A stretch of 32,112 nt of DNA from Kiritimatiellia bacterium. GTDB lineage: Bacteria; Verrucomicrobiota; Kiritimatiellia; RFP12; UBA1067. Shown piece after piece: positions 1,072 through 1,136 of this stretch. The DNA lies in contig JAFYDR010000331.1 in NCBI GenBank assembly GCA_017544725.1, positions 1 to 32,112 of the forward strand, read 5' to 3'. Position 1 is the first letter of the stretch; the number at the start of each line of letters is the position of its first letter. Made by a program: the position numbers and the translations under genes. Below the pieces are notes generated by a model. The model saw only the letters and a list, made by a program, of their open reading frames with translations, ran no database searches and was not told where the DNA came from.

Positions 1072-1136
1072 GCCGCGTAGCGGCACTTAACCCCGCAAGG
1101 GTACTTAACTGCGCAGTAGCACTTAACCGCATAGCG
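1072..1136 (+). repeat. 18-bp hairpin array, copy 1
   Basis: ACTTAA recurs at 1085, 1103 and 1121, an exact 18-bp period. The 12 bases between are each self-complementary but differ in sequence: GCCGC-GTA-GCGGC, ACCC-CGCAA-GGGT, ACTGC-GCAGT, then CGC-ATA-GCG. Structure is kept while sequence changes. A related array in the opposite orientation lies at 19678-19740. The remaining 1137-1243 shows nothing recognisable before the ribosome-binding site AGGAAAG (1244-1250) of the next gene. Confidence 0.75.

Follow-up and report, generated by a model that had tools for sequence, protein, structure and literature searches.

The window analysed here is the whole stretch of 32,112 nt, and it comes from a Kiritimatiellae MAG (G000) of 3.8 Mb that is 75% complete and divided into 366 contigs. 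Among its genes is a single ORF (7287–9647) encoding Mur ligase and then MurB domains, that is, a fused MurC/MurB-like gene. A tandem gene duplication lies at 27469–28623, where neighbours about 576 bp apart are 73–83% identical over long stretches. A dispersed repeat of about 130–150 nt occurs in both orientations at 557–704, 5175–5322, 23816–23963 and 25664–25790. The short tandem modules GGGACAATG, GCCAGTCTC, AGCTGAGA and GTGTCGC follow a recurring intergenic order at 497–538, 953–1028, 5176–5211, 7131–7161 and 25843–25894.

Two arrays with an 18-bp period are the subject of this report. In array 1, ACTTAA starts at 1085, 1103 and 1121, confirming the spacing given in a preliminary description of this DNA. 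The units belong to the minus strand. The first (1072–1089) is a perfect 5-bp hairpin with a GNA loop, GCCGC-GTA-GCGGC, followed by the tag ACTTA, which is TAAGT on the minus strand. The second (1090–1107), ACCC-CGCAA-GGGT plus ACTTA, has 4 bp and a broken C-A closing pair. The third (1108–1125) is the imperfect ACTGC-GCA-GTAGC plus ACTTA. An ACTGC/GCAGT stem had been quoted for it, yet that is a loopless palindrome; in the register of the family, 1108–1120 reads GCTAC-TGC-GCAGT on the minus strand and pairs imperfectly. The sequence also contains a fourth hairpin on this strand, ACCGC-ATA-GCGTC (1126–1138), which is degenerate and untagged.

The second array lies on the other strand, with TAAG at 19679, 19697, 19715 and 19733, again an exact 18-bp period. 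It had been taken for an inverted relative spanning 19678–19740. The strand and period hold, but this stretch is one half of a longer composite element (19678–19788, plus strand), which consists of a plus half-array, a centre and an inverted half-array bounded by TTAAGT...ACTTAA. On the plus strand, TAAGT is followed by GTTCC-TTC-GGGAC (19679–19696), by GCCGC-TAC-ACGGC with the loop-closing pair of the stem broken (19697–19714), and by the perfect stem GCCCC-TGC-GGGGC (19715–19732). The inverted half (19738–19788, minus strand) holds GGC-GAA-GCC, GAGC..GCTC and GGGC-GAA-GCCC; its tags are ACTTC, ATTTA and ACTTA, and other copies of the element have such an inverted half too. A 9-bp repeat, TTAAGCTGG (19663–19682, plus strand), adjoins and runs into the first 18-bp unit, and stands outside the 18-bp family proper. 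Tandem repeats of this 9-bp kind, TTAAGC(TGG/GTG/CGG), have TTAAG in common with the 18-bp arrays and are found in the window at 380–417, 7073–7116, 16042–16069 and 19663–19682.

The pattern TAAG-N14-TAAG matches the window 8 times, against 0.12 times in shuffles; five of these matches are the two 18-bp arrays and three are the separate 9-bp TTAAGC repeat. The two arrays of the window are weak, degenerate examples, and the evidence rests in the family rather than in these copies.

Exact unit junctions, TAAGT-N13-TAAGTG, number 122 in the window genome against 3 for a reversed control pattern. RGIG3447 (G001), a goat-rumen Kiritimatiellae MAG of the same genus, has 43 against 2. The same-genus genomes G002 and G003, the latter just 66% complete, have none, and the arrays thus differ in presence and absence within a single genus. 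Many copies occur in the related MAGs RGIG2765, RGIG2632, RUG572 and UBA3624, and few in RGIG1497, RUG10884 and RUG10674. Outside Kiritimatiellae the pattern gave single matches only, which we estimate to be near chance level for a collection that large. Palindromic repeats in Kiritimatiellae were looked for in the literature, with no relevant result. In the genome G018 (L093), a TAAGTYBGRRAGTGTCAGTAAGTG-like repeat with no obvious stems occurs about 20 times.

The 18-bp unit is made up of the tag TAAGT and a hairpin with a 5-bp stem and the loop TNC, which reads C-GNA-G on the other strand. ACTTAA had been given as the constant spacer; five of its bases, TAAGT/ACTTA, are constant, and the sixth varies. 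The outer G-C pair, the inner C-G pair and the GNA loop of the ACTTA strand are nearly fixed, and the three middle pairs vary together. A CRISPR array was considered and excluded: the unchanging part measures 5 nt, and what lies between is a set of hairpins used repeatedly, unlike the near-identical 24–48 bp repeats and unique spacers of CRISPR.

Units were gathered by TAAGT and spacing alone, with pairing disregarded, from array-bearing stretches of the window genome, giving 109 units, 72 of them distinct. The distinct units form on average 4.07 of 5 Watson-Crick pairs, compared with 2.65 after random reassignment of the 3′ arms (at most 3.06 over 2000 reassignments), and 28 of them have perfect stems against 3.5. 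RGIG3447 units form 4.59 of 5 pairs versus 2.82 after reassignment, and units of the related lineage 4.60 versus 3.20. For the middle three pairs only, the means are 2.49 (window genome), 2.75 (RGIG3447) and 2.71 (related lineage) of 3, versus 1.0–1.3. Covariation was counted on 70 of the 72 distinct units, two non-family 13-mers being excluded. Paired cells amount to 89.1%, compared with 63.5% in shuffles and 38–43% with partners slid; cells changed on both sides number 89 against 30.7 in shuffles; and the covariation score is 0.654 against 0.203. In each of these three measures, all 500 shuffles fall short of the observed value. The number of stem pairs with any both-side change, four in these units, does not exceed that in shuffles, as four can arise from column composition alone. 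The shuffles ignore relatedness, and the weight is therefore borne by the slid controls and by the repetition in three sets. The preliminary description had named a lack of pairing excess over shuffled controls as the result that would count against it, and the proposed pairing came through this comparison. These data are decisive that, family-wide, stem sequence turns over while hairpin pairing stays.

The units stand head to tail in half-arrays, and an element often comprises two such halves facing each other, with TTAAGT...ACTTAA at the outer ends. In the window genome, many copies have this opposed form, and their distinct hairpins follow an order that recurs from copy to copy; the copy at 19678–19788 resembles them. 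Elements of the related lineage often start with TTAAGT and end with ACTTAA, with TAAGTNAACTTA at the centre. Comparison of near-identical loci shows gain and loss of entire units, and also a difference of one 33-bp module. Since copies often share ordered hairpin sets and near-identical loci differ in this way, the sequence difference is partly a reshuffled repertoire of units. Compensatory change, as proposed at first, therefore holds in that pairing is kept while stems change, but not as repeated in-place change within one array.

At one site with flanks 95–97% identical, RGIG2765 has an array and RUG572 a short linker. In the array-free version of site 1 (L037, about 7094–7139), the short linker contains a palindrome of 9 bp whose loop is TCC. 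MITEs have terminal inverted repeats and a target-site duplication; TTAAGT...ACTTAA ends are frequent here, and the search for a filled site and a clean empty counterpart with a target duplication gave none. In the best pair, a coding one, an array takes the place of a short linker. For syntenic intergenic pairs between the window genome and RGIG3447, turnover was too far advanced for the empty-site search.

Of 357 units, 334 have a TNC loop on the TAAG strand and 2 a GNA loop. The middle base of the loop is more variable (1.64 bits) than the two neighbours (0.61 and 1.15 bits). Perfect 5-bp stems with C-GNA-G were counted in intergenic DNA, observed versus expected. The counts are 218 versus 5.4 in the window genome (about 40-fold) and 102 versus 3.0 in RGIG3447 (34-fold), both from stretches picked for holding arrays, which inflates the excess. 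In G002, sampled without such choice, the count is 5 versus 4.0, showing no excess. Coding DNA of the window genome holds 31 such hairpins versus 24 expected. A sample of intergenic DNA from the related lineage, in which the arrays are mostly coding, gave no C-GNA-G excess, which is atypical of a general mobile repeat. Where there is an excess, other repeats that have this loop account for part of it, and the loop rule is therefore wider than the TAAGT arrays.

It was reported that GNA loops form extraordinarily stable DNA mini-hairpins (PMC4686876). The present units have the C-GNA-G loop and the G-C rich stem that characterize such hairpins. Extrusion of the phage N4 promoter hairpins from supercoiled DNA requires the C:G closing pair together with the G and A of the loop (PMC4496689). 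The hairpins of these promoters for the N4 vRNAP are, like the TAAG units, small DNA hairpins with a 3-nt loop (PMC4496689), a comparison of how the units may work and not of membership. Because GNA loops give exceptionally stable DNA mini-hairpins, the constraint likely acts at the DNA level. The loop rule thus points to DNA, and not RNA, as the constrained form, and would suit a hairpin that is extruded. The DNA triloop-bonus list in the ViennaRNA parameter file used is empty, so triloop bonuses could not be used as evidence.

The same observations bear on an RNA element, in which the hairpins would act as terminators, stabilisers or regulators of transcripts. A composite copy does fold strongly as RNA (z −7.0), though its DNA fold is equally strong (z −7.1), and many clusters stand between tandem genes. 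However, a single element holds both orientations, arrays are also found inside ORFs, and the loops are triloops (GNA/TNC), whereas stable RNA hairpins typically have GNRA or UNCG tetraloops. Folded as single RNAs, the two window arrays fail to outscore their shuffled versions (z +1.06 and −0.41), and an Rfam search at gathering score returned no match. We regard an RNA element as very unlikely.

How pairing outlives the stem sequence had been ascribed to selection or to a copying mechanism that makes hairpins, and either may apply. Hairpin-primed template switching is a published process, which creates compensatory changes, is favoured by DNA-stable loops and can keep the loop sequence (PMC8794818). 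Acting neutrally, it would copy one hairpin arm from the other and keep pairing without selection, and slippage would multiply the units; it could thereby maintain pairing and even favour stable loops (PMC8794818). In agreement with it, units with a one-sided stem change are also present, and arrays grow by whole units. Loop inversion, a possible footprint of template switching, is nearly absent (2/357), but the intrastrand form of the process preserves the loop. By itself, template switching leaves unexplained the fixed TAAGT tag, the 18-bp pitch and the ordered hairpin set in dispersed copies, and it gives no account of the missing intergenic enrichment in same-genus G002. It is the main and a serious rival to the explanation favoured below, though on balance we judge it rather improbable.

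Placement relative to genes differs between lineages. In the window genome, none of the 38 placeable clusters overlaps a gene called by a simple gene caller, though 75% of that DNA is coding, and many clusters are flanked by genes in tandem. Most of the clusters found in the related lineage are in frame and stop-free inside proteins with HZS_alpha/FGE-sulfatase, PFL-like, FGGY kinase, short-chain dehydrogenase (SDR) and PLP-decarboxylase domains; a few clusters in RUG572 and RGIG1497 are not in frame within proteins. The coding arrays encode peptides such as LSAASQ, LSGPSG, LRGEAPL and LSAASQLSGPSG, and the in-frame inserts are probably translated. At L249, the genome G004 bears a different repeat at a protein site where its relatives hold TAAGT arrays. 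That the arrays exist because the encoded peptide is useful would fit the mostly in-frame, stop-free arrays of the one lineage. This can hardly be credited, however, as the encoded residues vary while DNA pairing holds and the 38 placeable window-genome clusters lie outside genes.

REP/BIME mosaics share with the TAAG arrays opposed palindromes within one cluster and intergenic dispersal. The arrays differ from them in much shorter units, a fixed pitch and covarying stems. The repetitive hairpin-forming elements of sponge mitochondria are reported to be dispersed and intergenic like the TAAG arrays (PMC2800124), a likeness in distribution.

Closer likenesses are found among tagged palindromes. 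GTAG REPs are short stem-loops, one end of which bears an unpaired tag of 4 nt, and are known in Verrucomicrobia too; Thauera GTAG-1 has 5-bp stems and clustered copies, with intragenic clusters encoding 43–82 residues (PMC3733652). TAAG units resemble them, especially Thauera GTAG-1, in being tagged stem-loops with 5-bp stems that are clustered and in some cases intragenic, and the arrays are likewise palindromic, high-copy and extragenic. Unlike GTAG REPs, they have a TAAG(T) tag (TAAGT in the collected units, not GTAG), an 18-bp head-to-tail pitch, many stems per tag and the C-GNA-G loop. Head-tail dimers are rare among GTAG REPs (PMC3733652). CGTC-tagged repeats, including the Rickettsia palindromic elements, stand in frame in several proteins, with no dedicated transposase known (PMC3733652). 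The TAAG palindromes, too, are tagged and, in the related lineage only, in frame in several unrelated proteins; they differ in the TAAGT tag, in their minimal 5-bp tandem units and in being only intergenic in one lineage. The preliminary description knew of no named family of this design. This stands for the TAAG sequence itself; the kind, tagged palindromes of which some lie within ORFs, has been described (PMC3733652). Thus the kind is already known, and the tag, the loop rule and the tandem design appear to be new.

The resemblance of tag plus hairpin to GTAG-tagged REPs (PMC3733652) raises the question of whether the units are REPs mobilised in trans by a RAYT, a Y1 HUH transposase, that recognises TAAG and the hairpin. 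Y1_Tnp genes are present in every array genome searched, and at one locus of the window genome (L130, 13735–15065) a composite hairpin array comes immediately after a RAYT-like gene. Nevertheless, about 35 Y1_Tnp/RAYT loci were inspected in genomes that carry arrays, and units adjoin just one of them. RAYT type and array presence do not vary together, and the genomes with the closest RAYTs, G002, G004 and G019, are without arrays. Neither adjacency nor distribution supports a RAYT as the mobiliser, and we consider this explanation unlikely.

We favour, with moderate confidence, a TAAG(T)-tagged, REP/RPE-like family of small dispersed palindromes in which the DNA hairpin is the recognised or copied form. 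Such an element would spread by copying. What is recognised or copied may be the hairpin, which would be extruded from supercoiled DNA or arise in DNA that is single-stranded during replication, and this would allow pairing to survive sequence turnover, in both orientations and in coding as well as non-coding DNA. More tentatively, TAAG may mark a third tag superfamily among the palindromic repeats of bacteria, in which a dedicated enzyme would read the tag and the C-GNA-G loop while the stem core is left free, the element being intergenic or translated in frame.

The family supplies several hundred natural minimal DNA hairpins that allow tag, loop and stem pairing to be studied separately. 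The same set offers a direct test of selection versus template switching as the source of compensatory change. It also presents one repeat design that is excluded from the genes of one lineage, whereas enzymes of its relatives tolerate it in frame. At L144 5230–5620 and L088 2290–2860 a further hairpin repeat was seen, whose spacers are of the TTTAAAT type and whose loops are TTC or TAA.
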